The translations under genes were made by a program, and so were the position numbers. 64,000 nucleotides of DNA from Rhizobium etli 8C-3 (GTDB lineage Bacteria > Pseudomonadota > Alphaproteobacteria > Rhizobiales > Rhizobiaceae). A model generated the notes under the pieces. That model was not told the origin of the DNA. It searched no databases and saw nothing but the letters and a program-made list of their open reading frames with translations. Within the stretch, counting starts at the first letter, position 1. Each line of letters begins with the position of its first letter. The DNA lies in NCBI RefSeq assembly GCF_001908375.1, contig NZ_CP017244.1:2170001-2234000 (forward strand). The letters are read 5' to 3'. Positions 16,837 through 33,700 of this stretch are shown here, piece by piece.

Positions 16837-17844
16837 TCATTGCAGTGGTCTATCGGCGAAATGAGCCATCGCAAACTCGGCCGCATTCTGGTTGGATCTC
16901 CTTGCTTCGTCGAGCCAGAACGGAAACAACGAGGCCCCATGGAACAGGCCCGGCACGACATCGAGCCGCACATCGACATTGGAAGCCTTCAGCTTTTCGA
17001 AAAGCCGCTGAACATCCCCCCGCAAAGCCTCCTTGTCCCCGACTTGCAGCAGGGTCGGAGGAAAGCCTGAATAATCGCTGTTTATCGGCGACACGGTTTG
17101 AAGCGAGGCAGTCCCCTTGCCCGCATATTCTTTCCCCACCTGCTGCAGCCATTCGCGGCTCAGCGAAACCTCGTCCTTTCCATGCGCTGGAACCCCCGCA
17201 CCCTCAAAATCGGTAACCGGGCTGATAGCGATCACGGCAGCGGGCTTCTCGCCATTTGTGGCGATCTGGCGAAGGGACATTTGAAGTGCCAAGGTTGCGC
17301 CGACGGAATCTCCGATCACCACAATGTTTGCCGCCTCGTAGCCCGATTCAAGCAGCCATCGAAACGCAGTGACTGCATCCTCGACCTGCCTCGGAAAGCG
17401 GTACTGAGGCAAAAGCCGATATTCGATCAACAGCACATCGGCAGACGAGGCCTTCGCGAACGACGCGGCGATGTTTCGATGACTACGCAAGGAGCCGCCA
17501 TAAAGGCCTCCACCGTGGAGATAGAGGATCGCCCGTTTGCCAAGCGGGTGGTGGAGGCGAGCGGGCCAGATCAACTCGCCGTCAACGCCATCGGCATCGA
17601 CGTCTCGTATCTGTACCCGCGTTGGCTCAGGCGTGGCCCTCATCGCCTCCTCGAAGCGCAGCCTTCGGTCGCGAAACTCACTCTTGTCGTCTAAAAGCCG
17701 AGCAATGATTTCCTTGGCGCGCGATCGTGGATCCGACTTTGTTGCGCTGGCGCCATCGGCACGTGCCATACCGTTCAGCGATGATAGCAGAAGCAAGCAT
17801 GCCATCACCCTGAAAGCCAAACCGGTTTTTGATCGCAATGGCAT
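16837..17844 (-). CDS. Exported alpha/beta hydrolase, HSL-type esterase/lipase
   Basis: The 335-residue precursor has an N-terminal signal (FRVMACLLLLSSLNGMARA). The mature enzyme carries the hormone-sensitive-lipase oxyanion motif LHGGGLYGGS (near residue 110), the nucleophile elbow GDSVGA (S180), and late aspartate and histidine candidates in VGDKEALRG and PGLFHGAS. It should hydrolyse short-chain esters in the periplasm or outside the cell; the substrate is unknown. GAGGAG precedes ATG. It stands alone, flanked by a gene-poor region. Confidence 0.85.
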   Translation of the reverse strand: MPLRSKTGLAFRVMACLLLLSSLNGMARADGASATKSDPRSRAKEIIARLLDDKSEFRDRRLRFEEAMRATPEPTRVQIRDVDADGVDGELIWPARLHHPLGKRAILYLHGGGLYGGSLRSHRNIAASFAKASSADVLLIEYRLLPQYRFPRQVEDAVTAFRWLLESGYEAANIVVIGDSVGATLALQMSLRQIATNGEKPAAVIAISPVTDFEGAGVPAHGKDEVSLSREWLQQVGKEYAGKGTASLQTVSPINSDYSGFPPTLLQVGDKEALRGDVQRLFEKLKASNVDVRLDVVPGLFHGASLFPFWLDEARRSNQNAAEFAMAHFADRPLQ

Positions 17845-18680: not shown

Positions 18681-20555
18681 TCAGTCGGCGATGATGCAGA
18701 GTGGGCTCTCCCGTCCGAAGGCGTCGCGCGCCCGCACGGCATGGCGCGCGCCCGATTGCGGCGATACATGCAAGTAGGCCGTCGAGATCAGAGGAGCGGG
18801 ATTGACCTTCTCGAAGGTCTTTCCATCGGTGCTGGTCAAGACGTCGTAGAAAATGCCCGGACTGGCATCGCCTGCGGCCCAGAACAGCATCCGTTGCGCC
18901 CGCTCTCCAAGACCCCGGTAGCGCGTCGCCGTCAGCCCGGTCGGCGCGGACGGCGCCGCTCCCGTGTCGGGGACTACCAGTATTTGCGTGAGGGAGGGCA
19001 GTGGCACGTCAAGGTCGAGGCTGATCCGGCCTTCCTGCGCGTCGACGATGCTGATCGGGTGCAAAAGCGCAGGCTCCTGGGCGCGCCGCAATTGGGCAAA
19101 CTGATCGGCGGTTGGCTCGCGCGGTGCGCCGACCGGCTCCCAGGGACCGCGTGGGTTGCCTTCGTCCCGCTGCGCCTCCCACACTTCCATGGGATTGGTA
19201 AACTCATTGTCGATGCGCAGCAGGCAAACGGCGTGACGGCCCGGCTTTAATCCGTCGATTTGAAGCCGCACCGACGTTCGTCCGGACTGTGTGATTGCGT
19301 CGACGGAGTGGATCAGCGCGATTGAGGCGCCGCCATCGGCAAGTTTTGTAGGCAGGACGGCCAGCCCGTCTATGTCCGGATCGAGTTTCGGATTTGCTGT
19401 CGCCTCGCAGAGTGTATCGCCCAGCGTTGCCAGCAATTCGAGCGATGTCAGGGCGGGCTTCTTGATCTGCTCGAAAGGCGGGGCAGCGTCGACGTCGGTT
19501 TCCAACGTGCTCAGATCGGTCTTGTGCTCCCATTGCGCCCGCCGGAAATTGCGGGGTCCGAAATAAGCAAAGATCGTTCGCTGCCCCCAGCCGCCGATGA
19601 AGGCGTGATCGTTGCTCAGAAAGGTGAAGTCGGCCGCCCCGGGGGCGATGATGCGGCGCTCGTGCTGCTCGATGATCTTGCCGATCATTGCGGCATAATA
19701 GGCCTTTCCATGCCACGAGTGATGGTCGGACCAACCAAGCTGCGGATCGCATTCATCATTGACGATCGGCAATTCAGCCAGCCGCGGATGATGCTGCCGC
19801 AAATAGTCGACGGTAAGCAGCGTGCGATCGATGATGCCCTTGCTGTTGGGCGTCAGATCCTCGATGCTGCCATTGACGCCCTTTTCATGGATGGAAATGA
19901 AGTCGATCCGCGGCGGGCCGTCGTTGGTCAGGCAGCTCACGCCTTTATCGCAGTGCGCAACGATGGCGCGAAAGATCGGCGAGAGCGTGCGCGCCGTCCC
20001 GGGACCACCCATCGGTAAGGAGCGGTCGACGGCGTCGAGCCCGGCAACGCAGGCATCATAATAGTTTGTGTAGCCCCGCTCACCGTAGGTCCACCAGCCG
20101 GAGTCCGCCTCATTGGTCGTCTCGAAAAACCAGCTGCGTAGCTCCTCTATGCCATAGCGCCCGGCATAACGTTCCGCCACTGCCGTGACCAGGTCGCGCC
20201 ACGCCTTGACCTGGTCGATGTTCTCATAATCGGTGAAGATGCCGGATGGATTGCCCATCAGTTCGAAGAACGGTTTGAGCCGATGCTCGACCATCACGTC
20301 GAGTGCGCGGTCGAGCAGCGACCAGTCGTATCTGGGGTTTTCAATGCCTCCGGTCGCAGTCAGCAGGTTGAGCAGATAGTGAACGCGCAGATAGCGGACG
20401 CCTTCATGCGGTACGCCGCCGAGATAGGCGACCATCTGGCGCATTTCCGGCTCCAGCAGCAGTTCTGCCGGAGAAAAGCCCGTGCCGCGCCAGAAGCGTT
20501 TGAAAGGACGCACCGGCTTGCTCACGTCGACATCTATCTTTGTGCGCTGGCGCAT
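18681..20555 (-). CDS. GH39 glycosidase, alpha-L-iduronidase-like
   Basis: The 624-residue protein aligns by eye with animal alpha-L-iduronidase along almost its whole length. It shares FFELMGNPSGIFTDYE (residues 96-111), FFETTNEAD with acid/base E149, GGPG (183-186), SIHEKG (K225), VNDECDPQLGWS with nucleophile E268 and G274-W275, LSNDHAF (D316) and GQRTIFAYF (R326). In the human enzyme the residues equivalent to K225, G274, W275, D316 and R326 line the uronate pocket. The C-terminal part (EPTADQFAQLRRAQEPALLHP, then YDVLTSTDGKTF) matches the beta and fibronectin-like domains. No signal peptide is visible, so it should act on imported oligosaccharide. It is the last gene of the Opp-type operon; AAGGAGA precedes ATG. 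Other GH39 activities, such as beta-xylosidase, remain possible. Confidence 0.85.
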   Translation of the reverse strand: MRQRTKIDVDVSKPVRPFKRFWRGTGFSPAELLLEPEMRQMVAYLGGVPHEGVRYLRVHYLLNLLTATGGIENPRYDWSLLDRALDVMVEHRLKPFFELMGNPSGIFTDYENIDQVKAWRDLVTAVAERYAGRYGIEELRSWFFETTNEADSGWWTYGERGYTNYYDACVAGLDAVDRSLPMGGPGTARTLSPIFRAIVAHCDKGVSCLTNDGPPRIDFISIHEKGVNGSIEDLTPNSKGIIDRTLLTVDYLRQHHPRLAELPIVNDECDPQLGWSDHHSWHGKAYYAAMIGKIIEQHERRIIAPGAADFTFLSNDHAFIGGWGQRTIFAYFGPRNFRRAQWEHKTDLSTLETDVDAAPPFEQIKKPALTSLELLATLGDTLCEATANPKLDPDIDGLAVLPTKLADGGASIALIHSVDAITQSGRTSVRLQIDGLKPGRHAVCLLRIDNEFTNPMEVWEAQRDEGNPRGPWEPVGAPREPTADQFAQLRRAQEPALLHPISIVDAQEGRISLDLDVPLPSLTQILVVPDTGAAPSAPTGLTATRYRGLGERAQRMLFWAAGDASPGIFYDVLTSTDGKTFEKVNPAPLISTAYLHVSPQSGARHAVRARDAFGRESPLCIIAD

Positions 20556-20585
20556 TCGCGCAATCTCCTTGGTTGGTTAAAGAGG

Positions 20586-21425
20586 CTATTTGAATTTGGC
20601 GCGCATTGCGTCGATGCCTGGAATGACCCCGGTCAGGTGCTCATGCTTCGGGTCGAAGCGCTGGATAAGACCACGGCGATGCTTGCCGACGAGGATGGTG
20701 AAGATGTAGCTGCGGTGTCCGGGCGACGTAACCGTCGGATGATAGCCGCGGTCGAGCAGGAACGTGTCGCCGCTGCGGGTCATGAATGTCTCGACCGGCC
20801 CGTTCTCTTCATAGACGATCTGTCCACCGAAACCGGTCTCCGGCAGGAAGCGGTAATGGTAGAGCTCTTCGTGACGACTTTCGACATCGCCGCACTCGGT
20901 GTCGTGCTTGTGGGGCGGGTAGCCTGACCAGCAACCGTCGCCGGCGTAGAGTTCGCTCACCAGGAGATGACCACAGCGCCCGTTCTGGCGTTGACCGAGC
21001 AGATGGGCTATGCGGCGCTGACTATGGGTCTCGAAGGAGCCGACATTGACCGCGTCGACCTCTTGAGGCGTGACGCGAAAAGCTGCATAGCGCCTCTCGC
21101 AGATCCCACCGGCCACGGCGATCTCGGCATTCCCGCTTGTTGCCGTGACAACGACGTCTGCGTCGACGGGCGCATAAACGCAATCGGCGTCACCTGACCA
21201 GATGTCGGCGCGTTGGCCGACCGCTTCGAAGCGAATGCCGTCGACCTCGATGTCGACCCTACCTGAGAGCACGACATAAAGGCTTTCATGCGCCGGCAGC
21301 CGTCTTCGCTCCTGACGGCCGCCAGAAAGCTTGAGAAGGTCGAAATAAATGAGCTCCAGGGTAGCCGACGACTGGTCGACGAGCGGGCGGGCGCGGATCT
21401 CGCTACGGGAAATGAGTTCTGGCAT
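20586..21425 (-). CDS. IolB/KduI-family uronate isomerase-like cupin
   Basis: The 279-residue double cupin has the metal-binding pattern of 5-deoxy-glucuronate isomerase: GYPPHKHDT (H172, H174), EELYHYRF (E187) and RGYHP (H229), with opening and closing segments as in IolB. IolB isomerises 5-deoxy-glucuronate in inositol breakdown, and the related KduI acts on deoxy-hexuronates. No other iol or kdu genes lie in the window, so its substrate here may be a uronate released by the iduronidase-like enzyme encoded next. Its ATG directly follows the stop of the OppF-type ATPase gene. Confidence 0.85.
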   Translation of the reverse strand: MPELISRSEIRARPLVDQSSATLELIYFDLLKLSGGRQERRRLPAHESLYVVLSGRVDIEVDGIRFEAVGQRADIWSGDADCVYAPVDADVVVTATSGNAEIAVAGGICERRYAAFRVTPQEVDAVNVGSFETHSQRRIAHLLGQRQNGRCGHLLVSELYAGDGCWSGYPPHKHDTECGDVESRHEELYHYRFLPETGFGGQIVYEENGPVETFMTRSGDTFLLDRGYHPTVTSPGHRSYIFTILVGKHRRGLIQRFDPKHEHLTGVIPGIDAMRAKFK

Positions 21426-22487
21426 TCAATGCAACTCCGCAAGTGGGTGCTCGTCGAAGGGCGTGAGCTTCAAGGTTTCGGCGTGGTGGCAAGCGACGGA
21501 ATGGTCATCCGTCTTGACTGGCCGCAGTGGCGGTACATGGCTCTTGCAGAGGTCTGTGACGTAGCGGCAGCGGGGGTGGAACGGACAGCCTGAAGGAGGG
21601 TTCGCCGGATCGGCCACCTCGCCGGCAAGCCGGATGCGGCGGCCACGGCGGCGCAGCCTTGGATCCGGGATGGGGACGGCCGAAAGAAGGGCTTCGGTAT
21701 AAGGGTGGCGAGGGCTGGCGAAAATGGCGTTGGTCGGCGCCTTTTCCACGACTTTCCCCATATACATGACCGCAACGTTGTCGGAGATGTGACGCACGAC
21801 CGAAAGGTCATGCGCCACGAAGAGGTAAGTCAGCCCGAAGCGCTCCTGCAGGTCTTGCAACAGGTTGATGGTCTGCGCCTGCACGCTCACATCCAGAGCC
21901 GAGACAGCCTCGTCGGCGATCACCAGGCGCGGTTCGGGCGCAAGCGCGCGGGCGATGCTGATGCGCTGCCTTTCTCCGCCGGAAAAGGCGTGCGGATAGC
22001 GGCGCATGAATTCGGGGCGAAGTCCGACGCTGCGCAGCAGCTCGGCGACCCGATCCACCAGTTCCGAGCCCGTTGCGATGCCATTCACCTTCAGCACCTC
22101 GCCGATGATGTCAATGACGCGCATGCGCGGGTTAAGCGAAGATTGCGGATCCTGAAAGACGACGCGGATATCGCGGTGAATCTCTTTCAGCCCCGGTCCG
22201 GACAATCTCGCAAGATCGATGGGCGCACCGCTGCGCCCGGTATAGGCGATCTCGCCTGCCGTCGGGCGGTAGACGCGCAGGATGGTGCGCGCGAGCGTCG
22301 ACTTTCCGCAACCGGATTCGCCGACGATGCCCAGCGTCTCGCCACTGTCGACGCTGAGAGACACGCCGTCAACGGCCTTGATATGACCGACGACCCGTCG
22401 GAATGCACCTCGATGGATGGGGAAATGCATTTTGAGATCGTGCAACTCGAGCAGCGCGTTCTGTCGCCGGGGTGTGTCGGCCGTCAT
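21426..22487 (-). CDS. ABC transporter ATPase, OppF/DppF type
   Basis: From ATG at 22487 the protein has 353 residues with Walker [10 protein letters not shown], the [15 protein letters not shown] signature, Walker B ([12 protein letters not shown]) and the C-terminal oligopeptide-ATPase extension with the CPFHPRC cysteine motif. ATG overlaps the stop of the OppD-type gene (ATGA), which fixes the start against a longer open frame. It is one of two ATPases of the importer. Opp-type importers with this layout also carry oligosaccharides, which fits the glycosidases here. Confidence 0.9.
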
Positions 22488-23533
22488 CGGTTTTCTCCAT
22501 GCAGAAGGCAGCTTGCAACGTGGCCTTTTGATATCGTGACCGGCTCGGGAGCCTTGCGGTCGCAAAGCCCTGCCACCGCCATTGCGCAGCGCGGGTGAAA
22601 ACCGCATCCCTGCGGGCGGTCCAAAGGCGAAGGCACCATACCCTCGATGGTCGGGAGCCGCTTTGTTCCACCGCCATGCATTCGCGGAACCGATTGCAGG
22701 AGCGCCCTGGTGTAGGGATGTGCCGGCGCGTGGAAGATGGTGTCGACGTCGCCGGCCTCGACGACCTTGCCCAGATACATGACGACCACCTCGTCGGCGA
22801 TCTCGGACACCACGCCGAGGTCGTGGGTGACAAACAGCACCGAAAGATTGAAGTCGGCCTGCAGCGTCGAAAGCAGGTCGAGGATGTTGGCCTGCGTCGT
22901 CACGTCAAGTGCCGTGGTCGGCTCGTCGGCGATCAAGAGCTTTGGGCGACAGGAAAGCGCAAGTGCAATACAGACGCGCTGGCGCATGCCGCCGGAAAAT
23001 TGGAAAGCGTAGCTCTCCATCCGCTCCCTCGGGCGGGGAATGCCGACAAGCGACAGCGTCTCGATCGCATGCTCTTTCGCTTCGCGTCGGCCCATGTTCA
23101 GATGCAGGCGAATGACTTCGATCATCTGATTGCCAATCGTGTGGACCGGCGAGAGCGCGGCCATCGGCTCCTGGCTGATCAGGGCGATCTGAGCGCCGCG
23201 AATCGCCCGCATATCCTTGCCGCGTGGATCGAGCGCGACAATGTCCACCGGCGGCTTGCCGGCGTCTGGCCTGTAGCGGATTGCGCCCGATACAATGCGC
23301 CCGCCGCGCGGAACCTGGTTCAGGATCGAGCGCCCGGTAATGCTCTTGCCGGAGCCGGATTCGCCCACGACGCACACCGTCCTGCCGCGCGGGATCGAGA
23401 AAGACACGCCGTCGACCGCCCGCACCAATCCCGCATTGCCGAAGAAATGGGTGTGAAGGTTGTCGACCTCGATCAGCGGGTCCGGCGCAGCGCTCCGGTC
23501 TGTCTCTTTGGCAGGCATGGGTTTAGTACTCAT
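22484..23533 (-). CDS. ABC transporter ATPase, OppD/DppD type
   Basis: From ATG at 23533 ([12 protein letters not shown]) the protein has 349 residues with Walker [10 protein letters not shown], the [14 protein letters not shown] signature, Walker B ([12 protein letters not shown]) and the GCGFHPRC motif near the C-terminus. The start overlaps the last codons of the OppC-type gene by 11 bases. Together with the OppF-type ATPase it powers the importer. Confidence 0.9.
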
Positions 23534-24665
23534 AGGGATCTGCAGCATCGCGAATTCCATCACCAAGGAAGTTGAGCGCAAGGACCGTGATGATCACCGC
23601 CAGTCCGGGCAGGAACAGCCAGGGCGCGTTAGAGACAGCCAGGATGTTCTGCGCCTCCTGCAGCAGGACACCCCAGCTCACCACCGGAGGTCTGAGCCCG
23701 ATGCCGAGGAAAGACAGTGCCGTCTCGGCCAGGATCATGGTAGGGATCGCCAGCGTCACCGAGGCGATGATATGGCTCATGAATGACGGCACCATGTGTC
23801 GCCAGATGATGCGCATCTTCGAACAGCCGTCGAGCTCTGCGGCAATCACGAAATCCTCAGACTTGAGCGACAGGAAGCGCCCACGCACCACGCGCGCCAT
23901 GTCAGTCCAGCCGATCAGCGACAGGATGACGGTGATCCAGAGGTAGACAACGATCGGGTCGGTGCTGATCGGAACGGCCGCCGCCAGTCCCATCCACAGC
24001 GGAATGGTTGGTATCGACTTCAAAAGCTCGATGCCGCGCTGGATGACATCATCCACCCAACCGCCGTAAAGACCCGATATGCCGCCTAAAAGAATACCGA
24101 GGATCAGACTGATGGTCACGCCGATCAGGCCCACCGACATCGAGATGCGGGTTCCATGGATGGTTCTGCTGAGCACGTCGCGGCCAAGCCGGTCAGCACC
24201 AAACAGGTAAAAAGGCTGACCCGGTTCGAACGGACCGATCAGGTGGCGGTTGGTCTCGAACAGGCCCCAGAACCGGTAGGGCTCGCCCTTGACGAAGAAA
24301 CCCACCGGGATGAGCGTGTTCGGATCAGGTTCATAGGTACGGCTGAGCGCAATCGGGTCGACCTTGGCAAGGTAGCCGTTCACATAGAGCATGTGGAACG
24401 CGCCGTTGGCGTCATGGCCCGCAAACCTGAGCCGTTGCGGCGGGGCATAGGTGAAGCGTGGATCATAAGCCTGCTCCGACATCGGCGCCAGGAACTCGGC
24501 AAAGGCGGCAATCAGATAGACCAGCACGATGACGGCACCCGAAGCCAAAGCCACCCGGTGCTGGCAAAACCGCCACCAGATCAGCCGCCATTGCCCTGCC
24601 GATGCGTTTGCGTGCTTGGCGGGCTTGATCTTTGGGATGGCCGTTGCCACGGTTTGATCGGCCAT
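23523..24665 (-). CDS. ABC transporter permease, OppC/DppC type
   Basis: The 380-residue permease starts at ATG 24665 (MADQTVATAIPKIK), with GAGGAGG upstream. After the first membrane segment it has a periplasmic insertion of about 110 residues (YDPRFTYAPPQRLRF to GQPFYLFGADRLGRDVLS), longer than in dipeptide DppC and typical of permeases working with long binding proteins. The DGCSKMRIIWRH segment is the ATPase-docking loop. Confidence 0.88.
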   Translation of the reverse strand: MADQTVATAIPKIKPAKHANASAGQWRLIWWRFCQHRVALASGAVIVLVYLIAAFAEFLAPMSEQAYDPRFTYAPPQRLRFAGHDANGAFHMLYVNGYLAKVDPIALSRTYEPDPNTLIPVGFFVKGEPYRFWGLFETNRHLIGPFEPGQPFYLFGADRLGRDVLSRTIHGTRISMSVGLIGVTISLILGILLGGISGLYGGWVDDVIQRGIELLKSIPTIPLWMGLAAAVPISTDPIVVYLWITVILSLIGWTDMARVVRGRFLSLKSEDFVIAAELDGCSKMRIIWRHMVPSFMSHIIASVTLAIPTMILAETALSFLGIGLRPPVVSWGVLLQEAQNILAVSNAPWLFLPGLAVIITVLALNFLGDGIRDAADPYEY

Positions 24666-24681
24666 TGCAGTTGCCTCCTCT

Positions 24682-25668
24682 TCAACCGTTGCGGATGCGC
24701 GGATCGAGCCATGCAAGAAGCAGGTCGGAGATCAGCGTACCGATGAGGGTAAGGATGCTCATGAGCAGAATGATGCTGCCGGCCAGATACATGTCCTGGG
24801 CAAAAAGCGCGCTGAGCAGCAGCGGCCCGGTTGTCGGCAGGCTGAGCACGATCGACACCACGACCGCACCGGAGACGAGGTGCGGCAGCACCCAGCCAAG
24901 CGTTGAGACGAACGGATTGAGCGCCACGCGCACCGGATATTTCAGGAGGAGCCTGGTCTCGCTGAGACCGCGGGCGCGTGCCATGTCGACATAGGGCTTG
25001 TTGAGCTCGTCCAGCAGGTTTGCTCGCATGATGCGGATGAGGGCTGCCGTCGCGCCGGTGCCGAGCACGATGACGGGGATCCACATATGCTTCATGAGAT
25101 CCCAAAGCTTGCCCCAGCTCCAGGCGGCGTTCATGTATTGAGGCGAGAACAGTCCACCGATGCTCAGCCCGAAATAGTGAGCGCTGAAATACATCAGCAC
25201 CAGCGCCAGCAGGAAGCTTGGAATGGCAAGGCCGAGGAAGCCGAAGAAGGTGGCGATGTAGTCGCCCACCGAATATTGCCGCACGGCCGAATAGATGCCG
25301 ATCGGGAATGCCACCGCCCATACGAAGATCAGCGTGATGAGCGAAACCACCATCGTCAGGTTCAGGCGCGACCAGATAAGCTCGCTGACCGGTTTGTTCC
25401 AGTCGAAGGACTGCCCGAAATCGCCGCGCAGCAAAATGCCGCTGATCCACTTCCAGTATTGGACGACCAACGGCTGGTCGAGCCCATAGCGCTCGCGCAG
25501 GCCAGCGATCACCCCGGGATCGATGGTTTCGTTCTGCGACGCCAGCCGGGCGGTCAAAGCGGTCAGGAAATCGCCCGGCGGAAGCTGGATGATGATGAAG
25601 GTGACGATCGAAATCACAAACATCATCGGGATCATGTAGAGCAGGCGTCTGATCATGAATCCGGCCAT
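24682..25668 (-). CDS. ABC transporter permease, OppB/DppB type
   Basis: The 328-residue permease starts at ATG 25668 (MAGFMIRRLLYMIPM), with AAGGAG upstream. It has the usual OppB N-terminal membrane segment, about six membrane spans and the docking loop (YVDMARARGLSETRLL). It is the first permease after the binding protein. The 90-base gap upstream holds a strong palindrome. Confidence 0.9.
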   Translation of the reverse strand: MAGFMIRRLLYMIPMMFVISIVTFIIIQLPPGDFLTALTARLASQNETIDPGVIAGLRERYGLDQPLVVQYWKWISGILLRGDFGQSFDWNKPVSELIWSRLNLTMVVSLITLIFVWAVAFPIGIYSAVRQYSVGDYIATFFGFLGLAIPSFLLALVLMYFSAHYFGLSIGGLFSPQYMNAAWSWGKLWDLMKHMWIPVIVLGTGATAALIRIMRANLLDELNKPYVDMARARGLSETRLLLKYPVRVALNPFVSTLGWVLPHLVSGAVVVSIVLSLPTTGPLLLSALFAQDMYLAGSIILLMSILTLIGTLISDLLLAWLDPRIRNG

Positions 25669-25723
25669 TTCTTCGCTCCTTGCGATGTTTGTGGGCAGAT
25701 CGCCCGCCACAAGACACAAGGGC

Positions 25724-25742
25724 GGCGACAGGTCCTGTCGCC
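25724..25742 (-). repeat. Perfect inverted repeat between binding-protein and OppB genes
   Basis: GGCGACAGG and CCTGTCGCC flank a single base, forming a 19-base palindrome that can fold into a hairpin just after the binding-protein stop at 25758. No T-run follows. Like the elements at 3855 and 13297 it sits exactly between a binding-protein gene and its permease gene. Confidence 0.6.
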
Positions 25743-25757
25743 GTCCGGTTCGGAAGG

Positions 25758-27686
25758 TCAGTTTTCGTAGTAGAAGGTCTCGGGCTTAACCGGCCCGGGG
25801 ATCATATAGAAAGAGGTGCTCGGGATCACGTCGGGCACGTTGCGCATATTCTTCTTGGCGATGCCCACGCGGTCGGGTTCGAGGTTGGTACCGATGATGT
25901 AGAATTGGTCGCGTGTAATGGCGAGCAGTTCCTTCATGGCCGCGAGCTGCTGCTCAAGTGTCGCGCTCTGCTGCACCTTCCGGTACAGATCCATCTGCTT
26001 CTTGGCTTCCTCGCTCGGCTCCTCGGCATTCGGATCGTTGGGGTTCTGGTAGTAAAGACCCCAGGCGGTAGCGAAGCTCGATTCATATTCATGCGGGAAG
26101 TACCATTTGGGATCGAGCAGTCCCAGAAAATCGTAGCCTCCGCCGCCAACCCAGCCGATGCCATCGTTCTCATTGGTCTGGAGACGGGCGAAGATGAGCG
26201 AGCGCTCGGTCGGTCGCGGCTGCATATCGATGCCGACCTTCCTCCAGTAGCGCTGGATCAGTTCGAGCGCGTCGCTTTGGATCGGACTGCCCGTCAGTAC
26301 GTCAATGGCGAAGGTGACGCGCCTGCCGTCCGGCCCCAGTCTGTATCCTTCGCCGTCACGGGTGGTCAGTCCCGCCTTGTCGAGATACCGGTTGGCAAGA
26401 TCGACGTCATACGTGAGGTACTGGGTCGCCATCTGCTCGTCATAGAGCGCACTGCCCTCACGCGGAGCGGCCTGGTATGGCTTCGACTGGCCGGCGTAGA
26501 TGAGCTGGTTGAGCTCCTCGCGGTTGATCGCATGGCTGAGACCGATGCGAAAGTTTTTGTCGGAGAAGATCTTGCGCAGCACCTTGTTCTTGTGGGTCTG
26601 GTTCAGTGTGATAAGCAAGGCGTTGGACCAGGCCGGCCGCGCGATGAAAAGCCTGTATCCGCCCTTTTCCTGGTTCTGAACGATGACCGGGCGGGCATCC
26701 GTGGTCTCGATGAAACGGTTCTGCATATCGATCTCGCCATTGATCGCCTTCAGAATGATCGCCTGGGTGTCTTCCATCACGTCGATGGTGACCTTGTCGA
26801 GATAGGGAAGCTGGTTGCCGGCGGTGTCGACCTTGGCATAGTAAGGGTTGCGCTCTGACACGACCTGCGATGTGCCGACATAGGGGGCGGTCAGCATCCA
26901 GGCGTCGAGCACCGGGCGGCCGACGTCACGCCAGCGGCCCGGGAACGAGATCTTGTTGTTGAAGAGCTGCGCCCAGTCTGCAGCGCCGGCCTGCTTGACC
27001 AGCGCAGCGATGCCTTCTGGATTGAAATCCTTGTGGAATTTCTTGAGGTAGTGCGCCGGCGCAGCGGCAAGGATATCGGCGCCGCGGATGGTGGCCATGT
27101 TCATCAGGAACAGGCCGTTGGGCGCCTTGAACTTGAACACGACCTTGTAGTCACCAAACTTTTCGACTTTGACGGGCTCGCCGCCTGCCGTCAGCCATGC
27201 CGGGGGCGAGGGCGTGATTTCCTTGTTGCGCAGGACATGCTCGTCCCAGAAGATCAGGTCGTCGGCGCTGAAAGGTTCGCCGTCCGACCAGCGAGTGCCT
27301 TCGCGCAGAGTGAACGTGTATTCCGTGGCGTCGGCATTGACCTCGAAGCTCTCGGCGATATCGGGAATGACCTCAGTCCATTCGGGGTTCCAGCGAACAA
27401 GCCGGGTATAGCCGATCGAGCGCTCGATCTCGCTGTCGCCGCCGCCGAAAGTGGCGGTGCGCCAGGTGCCGCCGTAGCTGCCAACCGACTGGAGCGGCGT
27501 GAGTACGAGGGGCTTTGCCGGGAGGCGCTTGTCAACAGGGGGCAATTTTCCCGCATCGACGAGCGCCTTGAGCTGCGGAGACTCCTGAAATGCGACTGCA
27601 GCCCCGGCCCAGCCGGCGCCAACAACAAGTGCGAGAACGGCAGCACGAGCGGCTTGCCGTTGCAGATCTTTGACGAGCTTCATCAT
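25758..27686 (-). CDS. Periplasmic binding protein, OppA/DppA family (cluster with glycosidases)
   Basis: The 642-residue precursor has a Sec signal (RQAARAAVLALVVGAGWAGAAVA) and the long two-lobed SBP_bac_5 fold (RWSDGEPFSADDLIFWDE is the family signature). It lacks a lipobox cysteine, so it is a free periplasmic protein. It captures the substrate for the Opp-type importer. The length and the glycosidase neighbours suggest an oligosaccharide or glycoconjugate ligand rather than a short peptide. GGGAGGAA precedes tandem ATG codons, so the start may be the second ATG. The gene faces the LacI gene across an operator region. Confidence 0.9.
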   Translation of the reverse strand: MMKLVKDLQRQAARAAVLALVVGAGWAGAAVAFQESPQLKALVDAGKLPPVDKRLPAKPLVLTPLQSVGSYGGTWRTATFGGGDSEIERSIGYTRLVRWNPEWTEVIPDIAESFEVNADATEYTFTLREGTRWSDGEPFSADDLIFWDEHVLRNKEITPSPPAWLTAGGEPVKVEKFGDYKVVFKFKAPNGLFLMNMATIRGADILAAAPAHYLKKFHKDFNPEGIAALVKQAGAADWAQLFNNKISFPGRWRDVGRPVLDAWMLTAPYVGTSQVVSERNPYYAKVDTAGNQLPYLDKVTIDVMEDTQAIILKAINGEIDMQNRFIETTDARPVIVQNQEKGGYRLFIARPAWSNALLITLNQTHKNKVLRKIFSDKNFRIGLSHAINREELNQLIYAGQSKPYQAAPREGSALYDEQMATQYLTYDVDLANRYLDKAGLTTRDGEGYRLGPDGRRVTFAIDVLTGSPIQSDALELIQRYWRKVGIDMQPRPTERSLIFARLQTNENDGIGWVGGGGYDFLGLLDPKWYFPHEYESSFATAWGLYYQNPNDPNAEEPSEEAKKQMDLYRKVQQSATLEQQLAAMKELLAITRDQFYIIGTNLEPDRVGIAKKNMRNVPDVIPSTSFYMIPGPVKPETFYYEN

Positions 27687-27744
27687 TTCCTCCCAATGTG
27701 AACCCGCAGACGTCTGTCGTTATCCTCTAGTCCTTCTCCTCGTT

Positions 27745-27770
27745 GATTTACGTTATCGTTACCGTAAATC
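27745..27770. promoter_or_regulatory. LacI-type operator palindrome
   Basis: GATTTACG (27745-27752) and CGTAAATC (27763-27770) flank a 10-base core containing TTATCGTTAC, giving 11 of 13 symmetric pairs. It lies about 60 bases upstream of the binding-protein start and about 107 bases upstream of the LacI start. The CG-centred, AT-flanked form fits a LacI operator controlling both directions. Confidence 0.65.
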
Positions 27771-27840
27771 GATGTCAAATGGTATTCTCTCGGCACCTCG
27801 GATTGCGGTATTTTATCTGGATTTTACCCTATATGTGTGC

Positions 27841-27854
27841 GATATCGTTACCAT
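27841..27854. promoter_or_regulatory. Second LacI-type half-operator
   Basis: GATATCGTTACCATC repeats the TATCGTTACC core of the palindrome at 27745, about 86 bases away and just upstream of the LacI start. Two spaced sites of the same core suggest cooperative or looping repression and autoregulation. Confidence 0.45.
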
Positions 27855-27876
27855 CAGTTTGCAGTGAGACGAGCAT

Positions 27877-28884
27877 TTGACCCGGCCAAAGGATTTCGAA
27901 TCGAAGACCACCATCGCCGACGTGGCCCGCGCGGCGGGCGTGTCGCCGATGACCGTTTCACGCGTGCTGAACGGCCATGGCGGCGCCAGTGCCGAAACCA
28001 GCGAGCGCGTTGTCTCGGCTGCCAGCGCGCTGAACTACCGGCCCAATCCTTTCGCACGCGGGCTGCGGTCCGATCGATCGAGAACCATCGGATTTCTGGT
28101 TCCGGACATTACCAACCCGTTCTTCCCCGAGATCATCCGCGGTGCGGAAGACGCAGCCAATGCCGCCGGCTACAATCTGCTCTTGTCGAACGTCGTGGAA
28201 AGCAGCAAGCGCGAGGCCGAGTTGATCGATGCGTTCCTGGTGCATCGCGTCGATGGAATCATCGTGTGCAGCGCGCGCCTGCCAGACGCGGCGCTGCACA
28301 AGGCGCTCGGCCCACATCGCGCAGCGGTGCTCATCAACCGTGAGGCGCCGAAGGATGTCGCCGGGACCATAATGACCGACTATGAGCACGGGGCTTCGCA
28401 GGCGGTCAATCACCTCGTGGCACGTGGCCGGCGCAAGATTGCAATCATCGCCGGTCCTCGCAATTCCTATGGCGGTAAATGTCGTCTGATCGGCATCGGC
28501 AAGACCTTGGCCGAACACGGGCTGAAGGCGCCTGAGCCGGTCTACTGCGACCCAACGGTTGCCGGCGGGCGTATTGCAGCGGAAGAGCTGTTAGGCACCA
28601 AGCCAGGTTTCGACGCGCTGGTCTGCTACAACGATCTCAACGCCATCGGCGCCATGAAGGCCTGCCGGGCGGCGGGCATCACCGTGCCGCATCAAATGGC
28701 CCTGGTCGGCTTCGACGACATACCGATTGCCGAGCTGATGTCTCCGGCCTTGACGACCCTTCGCGTGCACAAGCGCGAGATGGGCGAAGCGGCGGTCGAA
28801 CTGCTGCTCAGCCGTATCGTCACGAAGAACAGGCAGCACGGGGTCGTAATCGAACCGGAGCTCATGATCCGCGAGACGACCTGA
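27877..28884 (+). CDS. LacI-family transcriptional regulator
   Basis: The 335-residue protein has the LacI helix-turn-helix (TTIADVARAAGVSPMTVSRV, about residues 10-30), the hinge (LNYRPNPFARGL) and the periplasmic-binding-like core (SRTIGFLVPDITNPFF). The start is taken as TTG at 27877; no ATG precedes the HTH in frame and the ribosome-binding site is weak, which suits a low-level repressor. It faces the Opp-type operon and is followed by the alpha-L-fucosidase gene after 21 bases, so it probably controls the whole locus in response to a released sugar. Confidence 0.9.
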   Translation: MTRPKDFESKTTIADVARAAGVSPMTVSRVLNGHGGASAETSERVVSAASALNYRPNPFARGLRSDRSRTIGFLVPDITNPFFPEIIRGAEDAANAAGYNLLLSNVVESSKREAELIDAFLVHRVDGIIVCSARLPDAALHKALGPHRAAVLINREAPKDVAGTIMTDYEHGASQAVNHLVARGRRKIAIIAGPRNSYGGKCRLIGIGKTLAEHGLKAPEPVYCDPTVAGGRIAAEELLGTKPGFDALVCYNDLNAIGAMKACRAAGITVPHQMALVGFDDIPIAELMSPALTTLRVHKREMGEAAVELLLSRIVTKNRQHGVVIEPELMIRETT

Positions 28885-28905
28885 TCGACAGAGGAGGAGA
28901 TTTCG

Positions 28906-30219
28906 ATGAATATAGAGACCCTGCCAGCCCTGACGCTGCCGCATGAAAAGAAGGCTTGGTTTGTTCATGACCGCTTCGGCCTTTTCGTGCACTGGGGTCT
29001 CTACTCGCTGCCGGCGAGGCACGAATGGGTGAAAAGCCGCGAAGAGCTGAGCGACGCCGACTATCAGAACTATTTCGACCATTTCGATCCGGATCTTTAC
29101 GATCCCCGCGACTGGGCCCGGCGCGCCCGCGCCGCAGGCATGAAATATGTCGTGCTGACCTCCAAGCACCATGAAGGCTTTTGTCTCTGGGATACCAAGA
29201 CCACCGACTACAAGGTAACCAACACGCCCTACGGACGGGATCTGCTTCTTCCCTTCGTCAAGGCGTTTCGAGCCGAGGGACTGAAGATAGGCTTCTACTA
29301 TTCGCTGATCGACTGGCACCATCCAGATTTCACGATCGACCCGCGGCATCCTCAGCGCAACCATCCCGATGCCGTGAAAATCAATGAAGGGCGCGACATT
29401 CGTCGCTATGCCGGCGTCATGCGCGAACAGGTCCGCGAACTGCTTACCGACTTCGGACCGGTCGATGTCATGTGGTTCGACTTCTCCTACCCGCAGTGGA
29501 AGCAGGGCGATCTCGTCGGCAAAGGACAGAAGGACTGGGAGAGCGAAACGCTGGTACGCCTGGTGCGCGAACTGGCGCCGGATACGATCATCAACAACCG
29601 GCTCGATCTTGCCGACCTCGTGCCCGATATCGTGACGCCGGAGCAATATGTGCCACGTGCCTGGCCTGAACGAGACGGCAAACGGATGACCTGGGAGGCG
29701 TGCCACACCTTCAGCGGCTCATGGGGTTATCACCGGGACGAGGATAGTTGGAAAAGCCCCGAGCAGCTGATCCAGCTCCTGATCGGCAGTGTGGCGATGG
29801 GCGGTAACTTGCTGATGAACGTCGGTCCGACGGCGCGCGGCACGCTTGATGATCGCGCCAAGGCTGCGCTCGGCGCCTATGAAGAATGGATCGCGCTGCA
29901 TGGGCGCAGCATCTATGGATGCACGCAGTCTGAGTTCTTGGCGCCGCTCGACTGCAGGCTGACGCAAAATGGCAGCCGGCTCTACATCCACCTCTTCAAC
30001 TGGCCGTTCCGTCACCTGCATTTCGACGCGCTGGCGGGCAAGATCGAGTATGCCCAGTTTCTACATGATGGCAGCGAGGTGACCTGGCTCAAGCCATCCG
30101 GAAATACCCTTTGGAAGAACAGCCAGTTTCCCGTCGGCGAAGATGCCATAAGCTTCGTATTGCCGGTACGCCGCCCGTCGGTCACCGTGCCGGTCATTGA
30201 AGTCTTCCTGAAGACCTGA
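28906..30219 (+). CDS. Alpha-L-fucosidase, GH29
   Basis: The 437-residue protein has no signal peptide. It shows the GH29 hallmarks FGLFVHWGLYSLPARHEW near the N-terminus, YVVLTSKHHEGFCLWDT (81-97) and VMWFDFSYP with nucleophile D192. It hydrolyses alpha-L-fucosides in the cytoplasm. It follows the LacI gene closely, with GAGGAGG before ATG, so the two are probably co-transcribed. Fucose plus a uronate-type glycosidase in one locus suggests a complex oligosaccharide, perhaps from a polysaccharide with alpha-L-linked residues. Confidence 0.92.
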   Translation: MNIETLPALTLPHEKKAWFVHDRFGLFVHWGLYSLPARHEWVKSREELSDADYQNYFDHFDPDLYDPRDWARRARAAGMKYVVLTSKHHEGFCLWDTKTTDYKVTNTPYGRDLLLPFVKAFRAEGLKIGFYYSLIDWHHPDFTIDPRHPQRNHPDAVKINEGRDIRRYAGVMREQVRELLTDFGPVDVMWFDFSYPQWKQGDLVGKGQKDWESETLVRLVRELAPDTIINNRLDLADLVPDIVTPEQYVPRAWPERDGKRMTWEACHTFSGSWGYHRDEDSWKSPEQLIQLLIGSVAMGGNLLMNVGPTARGTLDDRAKAALGAYEEWIALHGRSIYGCTQSEFLAPLDCRLTQNGSRLYIHLFNWPFRHLHFDALAGKIEYAQFLHDGSEVTWLKPSGNTLWKNSQFPVGEDAISFVLPVRRPSVTVPVIEVFLKT

Positions 30220-30716: not shown

Positions 30717-33700
30717 CTAAGCTGCTCCTGCCGTGTGTCCGCTTAGCAATTGCGCGTTCTTGAGATCTGGCAATGCCGTACCCTCTGTGAAACTTTCACA
30801 GATTTGGGCAAGCTGTTCACGCGCGGCGCCTTCGTTGTCAATCCGCGCAAGGCTCGTTGCTGCCCTCAGTTCCCAAAAGCGTGCGCCCTGTGCTCGGGCA
30901 GTGGCCAGCGCTTCGCCGAAGCGCTCGGCAGCCATCGTTTTGCGTTCGGGATCGATTTGCAGCATGGCCTCTCCCTGAAGTCGGAAAACCTCGGCCGCAA
31001 ACCAGCGCTCGTTGGTACGCTCGATGACCTGCTGTGCTTCCACAAGCAGGGCGAGGGCCGCATTCGGATGTCCGGCTTTGATGTCGATCTGCGCTTGAAC
31101 CGCCGTGAAATAGGGCAACATGTACTTCGCGCCGGTGCGACGCCATTCTTCAATGCCCCTCAACAAATCGGATCTGCCGCGATCTGTTTCGCCCTCCTCG
31201 GCAATTGCCCAGGCCTGCAGGATCATTGCTCCTGCCTGCCAGAAGCGAAATCCGGCCTCTTCTGATATTTCCGAGAGTTCACAGGCCCGACTTTTCACGG
31301 CCTGCCGATTGCCGAGTATCTGATGGACAACGCCACCGAAAAACAAGGGCAGAGCGAGACTGTTGCGGTGTCCCAGGCTCCTCGCTTCCCGAACCGCTTC
31401 ATCATTGGCCGCGATCGCCTGATCGGGCAAACCAAGCGGCAAGAGAGTGCGGGCCAGATAATCGAGACAGACGACACGGGGGTCAAAGGCATACACGAAT
31501 GCTTCAGACCGATGCTCCTGCGGGTCATAAAGTGACAGCGCTTCCTTCAAATGGGCGCGAGCACGCAAAAATTCGCCGGCTGGAAGCGCGCTGACACCAG
31601 CTGCCCGATGGGCGAAGAAAGAAAGGCCGCGATCATTGCTGTGACCTGCCAGCTCCAGCAGCTTGTCGGCGGCGCGACGTGCCTCGTCAAGCTCGGCCGC
31701 ATAGAGATGGTAGAGGCACAGGCCGTAAAGGACCGGGAACAGCTGGCGCATCTCATCAAGCTCTTCGCACAGCTCCTGTGCCCGCAGGTAGGCCGCTCCT
31801 GTTTCCGGCGCGGCAAAGCCATGCGCTGCCACTTGCGTGCTGCCGAGCGCGACCTGAATTCCCAGTTCTCGCCGCAATCGCTCCCGGGAAGGCGGGAGAG
31901 CTGCCAATCCGTTCAGGGCGTTGCGGAACCGGACAAGCGCTTCCGATATCGAGGAGCGCAAAAGCGCCCGCCTTCCGGCCAGTTCGTTATACTCGACGGC
32001 CTTGTCCAAAAGAGAGGCCTGGTTGAAATGATGCGCAAGCAACTCAGGCTCAGCTTCCACCTTTTCAGGAAAGCTTTCCTCCATGATGTGGGCAATGCGC
32101 GCGTGCAACTGTTGGCGTCGGCTCAATAAAAGGCTGCCGTAAGCGGCATCTTGAACCAATGCGTGTTTGAAGGCGTAGCTGACGTCGCCGCCTCCACCAC
32201 GGCGGAATACCAGGCCTGCAGCCACAAGCTGGTCAGTCGCCCTCTCCAGCTCGGGTTCTGCCAGTCCGGCGGCAGCAGCCAGCAATTCGTGGCTGAATTC
32301 CCGGCCGATTACTGCACCGATCTGGGCAACCTCCCTGACAGAGGCCAGCCGGTCGAGCCTTGCCATCAAGGAGTCGTGCAGCGTGGCGGGTACTGCCAGA
32401 GGAGGCAAGGGGCCGGACAGTTTGTAGTCCTCGCCTGTATCGCTCAGCATGCCTGATTCCAGGATGAGCTTGGTCATTTCCTCGATGAAAAGCGGCACGC
32501 CCTCGGTTTTTGAGAGGATTTGGTCGAGAACCGGTGATGGAAGGCTCTTTCCTCCTGTCATCGCCGCGATGATCGAGGCCGCCTGCGCACGGCTCAATCG
32601 GTTCAGTGTCAATAAAGTAGCGTGCCGAAGGCCGTTCCACCGAACCACACCTTCCGGGCGGGACGTGGCGACCAAAAGGATGGGAAGCTTTTGGATCCGA
32701 TCGACGATCACATCGAAGAGCTCGGCCGATACCGGATCAAGATAATGCGCATCCTCAAGCAGCATGAGGATCGGCTTTGCTCGCGCCAGGGCCACCAGTT
32801 GGTCGACCAGGACCTCGAATGTGCGCGTTTTCACCTTCTGCGGCATCAGATCGGGTTTGGGATAACGGTCTCCCGTGGGGATCGACAGCAAGGTGGCAAT
32901 GAGCGGCACTTCCTCCTGCGGATTGTTGGTCGCTGCAAGCACTCCTTCGAGAAAGGCCAGCTGTCGTTCCGGCGGATCCGTCCGTGAAATGCTGGCAGCC
33001 CGCAGCAACTGGTCTATGACTGGAAAAAGTGCACTTTGCGTATGATACGGTGAGCAGAAATAACGCAGGTATGTGACGTTCTCCTCCTTCAACCGTTCGC
33101 GAAGTTCCTGGAGAATGCGTGACTTTCCGATCCCAGCTTCGCCAAATAGCTCGACGACCTGACCTTCCCCCGACGCTGCGAGGTTCCATCGCTCGGTCAA
33201 CAAGGCCAGGTCGAGATCTCGCCCCGCCAGCGGCGCAGTGCCACCCTCGTGGAGAGCGTCGAAACGGCTTTCCGCCCGGCCCTCCCCGATCACTTGGTAG
33301 GAATTGGTGGGGGTATCGAAACCGTGCAGTTTCTGCGGGCGAATACGCTTCACTTCGAAGAGCTTGCCTGTCAGTCGGAACGTGAGTTCAGAAATCAGCA
33401 CTGTGTTCGGTTCGGCAAGAGCTTGCAGTCTGGCAGCAAGATTTGGCGTCTCGCCGACAACTGCATTCTCCTGAGCGGCGCCGAAGCCGACGAGGTCGCC
33501 GACGACCACCAGTCCGGTCGCAATCCCGACGCGCACCGAGAGTTGCTGGCCGCCCTTGGTCGACAAGCCCTTGATGGTCTCTACAACTGCAAGACCTGCC
33601 TTGACGGCTCGCTCGGCCTCGTCCTCATGGGTCTGCGGCCAGCCGAAATAACAAAGCACGCCATCGCCCATCAGCTTCGCCACGTAGCCGTCAAAGCGGA

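Follow-up and report, generated by a model that had tools for sequence, protein, structure and literature searches.

A nine-gene locus of Rhizobium etli 8C-3 is, on balance, likely to take up and digest, in a regulated way, a small acidic oligosaccharide with a terminal alpha-L-iduronate, the sugar being routed through an isomerase, a dehydrogenase and a gluconokinase. More tentatively, we propose that it represents a dedicated bacterial catabolism of L-iduronate, made up of iduronide import, an iduronidase, a new IolB-derived isomerase, 5-keto-D-gluconate, a dehydrogenase and a gluconokinase. The novelty lies in this proposed pathway and not in the enzyme type, which is already known, the Rhizobium leguminosarum orthologue being PDB 5NDX. 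A 2019 review describes the microbial reactions that catabolise L-iduronic acid as not clear (PMC6353982). The initial annotation knew of no described rhizobial pathway, and we found none in openly licensed PubMed Central papers.

The locus and its iduronidase homologue

The window (the whole stretch of DNA analysed, 64,000 nucleotides) carries the locus at 18681-30219 with the layout originally proposed, namely a GH39 protein, an Opp-type importer and an IolB-family isomerase in a minus-strand run, with a LacI-family regulator and a GH29 protein divergent from it (Table 1). The run is unbroken from the isomerase through two Opp ATPases and two permeases to a family-5 binding protein. A search for orthologous loci showed the layout to be conserved, 26 of the 27 loci fetched having the full set of nine genes in the same order. 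Wider genome searches turned up few cases (1/385, 5/397, 1/5 and 3/398); three of the genomes named below (G661 = L006, G765 = L024 and G675 = L026) are within the 27 and not additional to them. Apart from L020, whose title gives only "Rhizobiales bacterium", the one intact locus read outside Rhizobium and Neorhizobium was that of G514, a genome from another family. Two homologue lists, one for the GH39 and one for the isomerase, suggested further linked pairs; homologue P0117 is probably G514.

Table 1. Features of the iduronidase locus (positions in the window)
Feature	Position	Strand	Basis
GH39 alpha-L-iduronidase homologue, 624 aa	18681..20555	-	PF01229, 5NDX, IDUA, pocket residues
IolB-family isomerase, iduronidase-linked GYHPT subtype, putative L-iduronate isomerase	20586..21425	-	PF04962, signature
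Opp/Dpp-type ATPase F, start probably inside ORF	21426..22607	-	PF00005, PF08352
Opp/Dpp-type ATPase D	22484..23581	-	PF00005, PF08352
Permease C	23523..24716	-	PF00528, PF12911
Permease B	24682..25719	-	PF00528, PF19300
Periplasmic binding protein, family 5, SPH1118-related	25758..27686	-	PF00496; 7ver 437 bits
Predicted LacI-type operator GTTATCGTTACC / GGTAACGATAAC	27752..27763	.	pattern match
TTTGAC, likely -35 of operon promoter	27774..27779	-	placement; function putative
LacI-family regulator, recognition helix VSPMTVSRV	27877..28884	+	PF00356, PF13377
GH29 alpha-L-fucosidase-family protein, no visible signal peptide, accessory	28906..30219	+	PF01120, 6gn6

The GH39 protein matched the Pfam profile PF01229 over residues 6-500 (6.5e-68) and is the only match to it found in the whole 7.3 Mb genome. 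It scored 1156 bits against its orthologue 5NDX and 277 bits, over nearly its full length, against human alpha-L-iduronidase (IDUA). The initial annotation had called it a full-length protein with a catalytic pair and five uronate-pocket residues, and all seven residues are present in the hand-read alignment with IDUA: the catalytic glutamates correspond as E149=E182 and E268=E299, and the residues K225=K264, G274=G305, W275=W306, D316=D349 and R326=R363 fall on the positions that we take to be the uronate pocket of the human enzyme. The last of these was set by the common QRT motif, HMMER having misplaced a gap there. The catalytic pair and the pocket set, together with H59, N148, H223 and D270, are invariant in 120 of 120 sequences, a set consisting of the window GH39, the G514 GH39 and 118 of the 120 homologues listed (two shorter than 540 aa were left out, and the 118 probably include G514 a second time). 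Human IDUA is lysosomal and glycosylated; the window GH39, unlike it, is probably cytoplasmic and placed behind an importer, since no signal peptide is visible in its translation. The proposal of an iduronidase homologue was thus borne out, but not as a new kind of protein: PMC10794756 already presents R. leguminosarum bv. trifolii 5NDX, in complex with 4-MU-iduronide, as the bacterial orthologue of human IDUA. What has been solved there is the protein alone; descriptions of its operon, pathway or natural substrate were not found in openly licensed PubMed Central papers.

The importer likewise fits the Opp/Dpp ABC type by its domains, with two permeases, two oligo_HPY ATPases and an SBP_bac_5 protein. 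The closest solved structure to the latter is SPH1118, the pectin-binding protein of Sphingomonas sp. A1 (437 bits), of which, by hand mapping, R57, R294, R466 and E505 are kept in the window protein. The ligand probably differs from that of SPH1118, because several of the ligand contacts are lost, N53, E216, N324, R438, F592 and W594 being replaced. Kinship with a uronide binder speaks for the iduronide reading, the lost contacts against it.

The dehydrogenase and the shared operator type

A gluconate 5-dehydrogenase partner, expected to reduce the 5-keto-D-gluconate that the IolB-like protein should make from L-iduronate, had been set as a test before the G514 locus was examined. In G514, the start of a gluconate-5-dehydrogenase-family SDR overlaps the stop codon of the GH39 gene (TGATG), and this SDR is the sole match at E <=1e-70 in that 78% complete genome. 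It scored 424 against NF005711 (cut-off 413) and 282 against the equivalog PRK08085 (cut-off 408), with 5u9p as the best PDB match (294 bits). The dehydrogenase was seen inside the operon in G514 only, and the R. leguminosarum-type loci hold three other genes at its position. In the window genome, a gene 71% identical to the G514 SDR is followed by a gluconokinase gene in an idn/gnt cluster. The GntII or L-idonate pathway of E. coli consists of IdnD, IdnO, GntK and IdnR. The route proposed here would share 5-keto-D-gluconate with it as an intermediate, but would enter by isomerisation of L-iduronate and not by oxidation of L-idonate.

The idn/gnt cluster and the iduronidase locus of the window genome also have an operator type in common. 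At the iduronidase locus, the pattern is exact in 28/28 intergenic regions, the same regions from which it was derived, and in the window a further operator-like site with one mismatch occurs at 27841. The sequence TTTGAC precedes a site of this type by 6-13 nt in 27/28 regions, G514 being the exception, and the operator likely overlies the -10 side of the operon promoter. Across the 7.3 Mb genome the operator type occurs in 8 places (3 for the reversed control), five of them in or beside the idn/gnt cluster and one here. It is also present just upstream of the dehydrogenase gene in two other Rhizobium genomes, G661 and G765, and absent from that position in G567, G451 and G675. A comparison in which the operator was found in 4/4 genomes with an intact iduronidase locus versus 0/3 without one (G567, G451 and G675) was given up, as it is weakened by the idn cluster of R. 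tumorigenes, which also has the operator, with no GH39 locus shown for that species. Since it occurs there too, the common operator may reflect similar DNA specificity instead of one regulon, and our claim goes no further than that the operator type is common to both clusters. By NCBIfam the LacI protein is not an IdnR orthologue (138 bits, cut-off 500), its best model being RbsR (220).

The isomerase and competing readings of the substrate

The initial annotation listed the isomerase but drew nothing from it, although it points to a specific pathway. The protein belongs to the KduI/IolB family (PF04962, 1.4e-67). It shares with IolB this Pfam family and the metal-type motif PPHKHD...E..Y, whose site residues H172, H174 and E187 are invariant across 32 aligned isomerase sequences, but it reads GYHPT/PGH where IolB has GYHPC/GY, and it is flanked by the iduronidase where IolB is flanked by iol genes. 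GYHPT was present in 28/28 iduronidase-linked isomerases and in 0/16 inositol-type IolBs, which carry GYHPC in 16/16; the subtypes were split on this signature, and the tree was not used for branch order. A KduI identity was dropped, the relatives being IolBs and not KduI. The Devosia isomerase P0158 is 78% identical to that of the window.

An unlikely reading, and yet the most credible of the competing ones, is that the locus serves D-glucuronides or uronides generally, the GH39 having come to act on a neighbouring hexuronide and the isomerase making D-fructuronate from D-glucuronate. The configuration at C5 is all that separates an alpha-L-iduronide from a beta-D-glucuronide, and UxuA is an enzyme of the D-glucuronate route. 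A Phyllobacterium GYHPT isomerase adjoins a UxuA-family ORF; kdgD lies roughly 7 kb off, and GH39 is absent among the annotated genes shown. Because of this neighbourhood, isomerases of the GYHPT subtype may act on hexuronates in general. Against this stand the IDUA-type pocket of the GH39, whose orthologue 5NDX was crystallised with 4-MU-iduronide (PMC10794756), and the G514 locus (L050), where a gluconate-5-dehydrogenase-family gene is present and UxuA is not one of the 14 ORFs identified out of 16.

We consider it improbable that the isomerase is simply one more IolB, in a locus digesting an inositol-containing or unrelated glycoside. Its nearest outside-clade relatives in the order (39-44% identity) are indeed IolBs, lying in inositol operons where looked, and public names call the isomerase, and most of its named relatives, "5-deoxy-glucuronate isomerase". 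However, no inositol gene was found among the ten locus proteins scanned, the fixed GYHPT and GYHPC signatures part the two groups, and another KduI/IolB-family protein of the same genome, 29% identical to the isomerase, has a much higher family score (373.6 bits versus 227.9). The isomerase also falls short of the NCBIfam IolB model TIGR04378 (166.8 bits, cut-off 205), a shortfall that in itself says little because the iol-operon IolB examined is below the cut-off too (147.5).

A fucoside locus, with the GH29 as main activity and the GH39 secondary, appears very improbable. The GH29 (PF01120, 3e-84, 283.9 bits over a cut-off of 25.2; 385 bits against 6gn6) accompanies 26 of 27 loci, and a distant haloarchaeal GH39 (26% identity) also lies close to a GH29; in G514, however, a sulfatase occupies the GH29 slot while the core of importer, isomerase and GH39 is retained, and for this reason the GH29, on the evidence of this one genome, looks accessory and not core. 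Of the substrate suggested in the initial annotation, an oligosaccharide with L-iduronate or fucose, homology and gene order give good support to import and intracellular breakdown of an iduronide-type oligosaccharide, whereas the fucose half is weakened by the same sulfatase.

Finally, although xylosidases are among the members of GH39 and residues 7-233 match the beta-xylosidase chain 4ekj (88 bits), a xylo-oligosaccharide locus is highly improbable and a xylosidase identity was dropped, given at most 88 bits against xylosidases in the alignments called for at the outset versus the 277 bits over nearly the full length of IDUA, with weak extra support from four contrast GH39 proteins (three annotated beta-xylosidase, two alignments doubtful). 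K225 and D316 are each present in two of these four, G274 in none, and W275 and R326 were each aligned, doubtfully, in one; as aligned, only G274, W275 and R326 together, found in 0/4, discriminate the window GH39 from them.

The proposed route and its implications

In the iduronide route that we favour, the binding protein and Opp-type transporter would carry the intact oligosaccharide into the cytoplasm, an accessory enzyme (the GH29, or the sulfatase in G514) would strip a cap or decoration, and the GH39, as its strong homology suggests, would release L-iduronate. The substrate of IolB has no C5 stereocentre, 5-deoxy-glucuronate being the same compound as 5-deoxy-L-iduronate. The IolB-like isomerase would convert L-iduronate to 5-keto-D-gluconate, which corresponds to the product of IolB with a 2-hydroxy group added. 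Gluconate 5-dehydrogenase would reduce this keto acid to D-gluconate, and gluconokinase would phosphorylate the D-gluconate to 6-phosphogluconate. We infer the steps from isomerase to gluconokinase from the stereochemistry, the gene order in G514 and the genes and operators of the genome. LacI would repress the operon at the site seen, which is of the type shared with the idonate/gluconate cluster.

The locus is a concrete candidate for an L-iduronate route, every step of which is testable with one protein and one substrate. If the proposal is true, soil bacteria could use the iduronate of animal glycosaminoglycans, algae and other sources, and G514, with its cytoplasmic sulfatase, would mirror human lysosomal iduronide breakdown in a bacterial cytoplasm. 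An L-iduronate isomerase would then join the IolB/KduI family, and the name "5-deoxy-glucuronate isomerase" may be wrong across the GYHPT subtype.

Gene order and distribution of the iduronidase-type locus

The initial annotation had placed an iduronidase-type locus in this window, and both the domains and the gene order bear out that it is real. On the minus strand, an operon-like run encodes in order the binding protein, two permeases, two ATPases, an IolB-family isomerase and the GH39 protein, while LacI and GH29 lie on the plus strand in divergent orientation (see table). About 0.8 kb beyond GH39 lies an alpha/beta hydrolase gene, which among the 27 fetched loci falls within the flank in L002 only. 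The window also encodes a long composite protein, described from its translation only, and to the left of the window a KduI-family stretch (L031) is interrupted by an in-frame TAG and looks like a disrupted paralogue.

Coordinates of features in the window and in compared loci (C4, contig of the window's genome; L-numbers, fetched loci)
Feature	Position	Strand	Remark
Binding protein	window 25758-27686	minus	first gene of run
GH39	window 18681-20555	minus	last gene of run
GH29	window 28906-30219	plus	
Alpha/beta hydrolase	window 16837-17844	minus	signal-like N-terminus
Long protein	window 30717-34097	minus	nucleotide cyclase-like, joined to ATPase and repeats
KduI-family stretch	C4:2158941-2159405		in-frame TAG
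Dehydrogenase-like gene	C4:1589573		gluconokinase immediately behind
Operator sites of idn/gnt cluster	between C4:1589517 and 1601314		five, in or beside the idonate/gluconate genes
Sulfatase of G514	L050 16777-18132		in GH29 slot
Three extra genes	L087 15877-19134		after GH39, R. johnstonii 3841 pRL10
GYHPT isomerase copy, Phyllobacterium sp. T1293	L089 13013-14828		

All nine genes were matched, in the same order, in 26 of the 27 loci fetched from public genomes, L026 being truncated; one gene each is in pieces in L025 and L028, and GH29 is cut by a contig end in L024. Of the locus, L026 (identical to L051, genome G675) retains only a fragment of the binding-protein gene and an incomplete GH39, and another Opp operon lies directly beyond it, as also in Neorhizobium L003. 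GH39 relatives at E 1e-30 or better comprised 89 plasmid records, 88 of them from Rhizobium. The locus is uncommon beyond the genus: it was present in 5/397 genomes of the order (two of the five outside the genus, one of these truncated), in 1/385 of a class draw, namely the window's own genome, and in 3/398 of a phylum draw. On a haloarchaeal plasmid (Haladaptatus pallidirubidus, L088), a GH39 relative (26%) has a GH29 gene and genes for sugar oxidation in its vicinity. Three further genes, all absent from the window, are present in R. leguminosarum-type loci; they encode a TIM-barrel protein, a 2-hydroxyacid dehydrogenase and a product that resembles glucarate dehydratase only weakly (E 0.014).

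The GH39 enzyme and the imported ligand

Within the 7.3 Mb genome, the search found PF01229 only in the GH39 gene, which lies on the 2.25 Mb contig C4 and has its closest named relatives in R. mongolense (96%) and R. gallicum (95%). Against solved structures the protein scored 1156 bits with 5NDX and 277 bits with human iduronidase (residues 7-619), versus at most 88 bits with xylosidases, the best of which covers residues 7-233. The enzyme type is already known: an excerpt of PMC10794756 describes 5NDX, from Rhizobium leguminosarum, as the bacterial orthologue of the human enzyme in complex with 4-MU-iduronide, and an excerpt of PMC6933502 ascribes one additional beta-sandwich to the Rhizobium GH39. 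The acid/base Glu position is Gln in the 5NDX chain, which we read as a deliberately inactive mutant. The catalytic pair and the five uronate-pocket residues listed in the initial annotation all align as claimed. Eleven pocket and catalytic positions are invariant in 120/120 GH39 sequences (one each from the window and G514, plus 118 that remain of the 120 listed homologues once two short ones are omitted), which demonstrates conservation rather than activity, since the homologues were chosen by similarity.

Closest to the binding protein is the pectin-binding SPH1118, which holds uronates largely via arginines according to excerpts of PMC7055323 and PMC9314435. When its contacts were mapped by hand from the alignment, R57, R294, R466 and E505 were kept (R294 and R466 being present in 5ipw too), R496 was replaced by Lys, and N53, E216, N324, R438, F592 and W594 were not kept. 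As the contacts are partly kept and partly replaced, the ligand is likely acidic and probably differs from pectin.

An isomerase subtype linked to the iduronidase

The isomerase scored 166.8 bits on the IolB model (cut-off 205), a cut-off that does not discriminate by itself because an IolB encoded in an iol operon also scored only 147.5. Relatives occurred in 31/297 genomes of the order; only those of G000, G661 and G514 reach 57% or more, and each of these has GH39 next to it. At 15 of the other 29 places, an IolC-type kinase cluster was found in 13/15, IolD in 11/15 and IolE-like in 10/15, the clusters being named from their representatives and one contig being only 4 kb long. The motif GYHPT....PGH..Y occurred in 28/28 iduronidase-linked copies (L018 and L087 among them being the same strain), versus GYHPC....GY..Y in 16/16 inositol-type copies; among 1221 wider relatives, 114 of the 119 listed carry GYHPT. 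Since a conserved His stands two residues away from the changed position, altered substrate binding in this subtype is plausible.

IolB converts 5-deoxy-D-glucuronate into 2-deoxy-5-keto-D-gluconate. Lacking a C5 centre, this substrate is equally 5-deoxy-L-iduronate, and from our own stereochemical reasoning we propose that an IolB-type aldose-ketose isomerisation would turn L-iduronate into L-sorburonate, which is 5-keto-D-gluconate; a gluconate 5-dehydrogenase would act next, towards 6-phosphogluconate. A strict iduronate role of the isomerase is countered by Phyllobacterium sp. T1293, where a GYHPT copy comes directly after a UxuA-family ORF that lacks annotation and after another Opp importer; kdgD is some 7 kb distant, and GH39 is absent among the annotated genes shown for that locus. 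That the Rhizobium locus handles D-glucuronides, or uronides in general, seems to us unlikely.

A distant locus, a shared operator and the proposed L-iduronate route

For the iduronate route, a dehydrogenase or gntK nearby had been set as a test before the locus of G514, a genome of another family in the same order, was fetched; there a gene probably of the gluconate 5-dehydrogenase family was found adjoining GH39. GH39 (44-47% identity), isomerase (56-57%), the four transporter genes, the binding-protein gene and LacI keep their order in G514, and the GH29 slot holds a sulfatase that has an SGSH_C domain and a CCPSR motif and in which no signal peptide is visible. As both occupy one slot, we treat GH29 and the sulfatase as decoration-clearing enzymes, either of which would act on the imported oligosaccharide. 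The short-chain dehydrogenase directly follows GH39, with ATG and stop overlapping by one base (TGATG); its sequence suggests a member of the gluconate 5-dehydrogenase family (5u9p as best match in the PDB, 294 bits; NF005711 above cut-off, the specific equivalog PRK08085 below its own). Being the sole match at E 1e-70 or better in a genome 78% complete, it would adjoin GH39 by chance in about 2 of 3300 cases (some 3300 genes assumed). In no other locus was the dehydrogenase seen within the operon. The window's genome carries a gene 71% identical to it; around this gene lie two LacI-type regulators and a gene resembling idonate dehydrogenase, each under its NCBIfam cut-off.

GKTAWCGWTAMC sites were present between LacI and binding protein in 28/28 regions (26 loci, the window and G514), partly by construction, as the pattern was derived from them; a TTTGAC box precedes a site by 6-13 nt in 27/28. 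Across the window's genome the site was found at 8 places, compared with 3 for the reversed control; the idn/gnt cluster and its flanks account for five of the 8, this locus for one, and contigs C1 and C2 for the remaining two. Two genomes also among the 27 loci, an overlap that slightly lowers our confidence in the iduronate route and slightly raises that in a glucuronide locus, gave 6 (control 3; G661) and 9 (control 0; G765), each with two at the iduronidase locus and two at the dehydrogenase stretch, the other two and five lying elsewhere. G514 had 2 (control 1), one inside its locus. In four genomes without an intact locus the number of places ranged from 1 to 5, as it did in their controls, and no site lay near the dehydrogenase in the three of them that have this gene. 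Rhizobium sp. N6212 and R. tumorigenes likewise carry the operator in their idn clusters; of the two, only N6212 was seen to have the GH39 locus, on a plasmid. The LacI recognition helix, VSPMTVSR, is identical to that of one of the two idn-cluster regulators. We conclude that the iduronidase locus and the idn cluster share an operator type; they possibly form one regulon.

Overall, a route of import, iduronidase, IolB-derived isomerase, 5-keto-D-gluconate, dehydrogenase and gluconokinase, with a LacI operator type in common, is somewhat more likely than not. We found no description of the assembled pathway in openly licensed PubMed Central papers, and its passage through an IolB-derived isomerase to 5-keto-D-gluconate is what we propose as new, a proposal that is easily tested.
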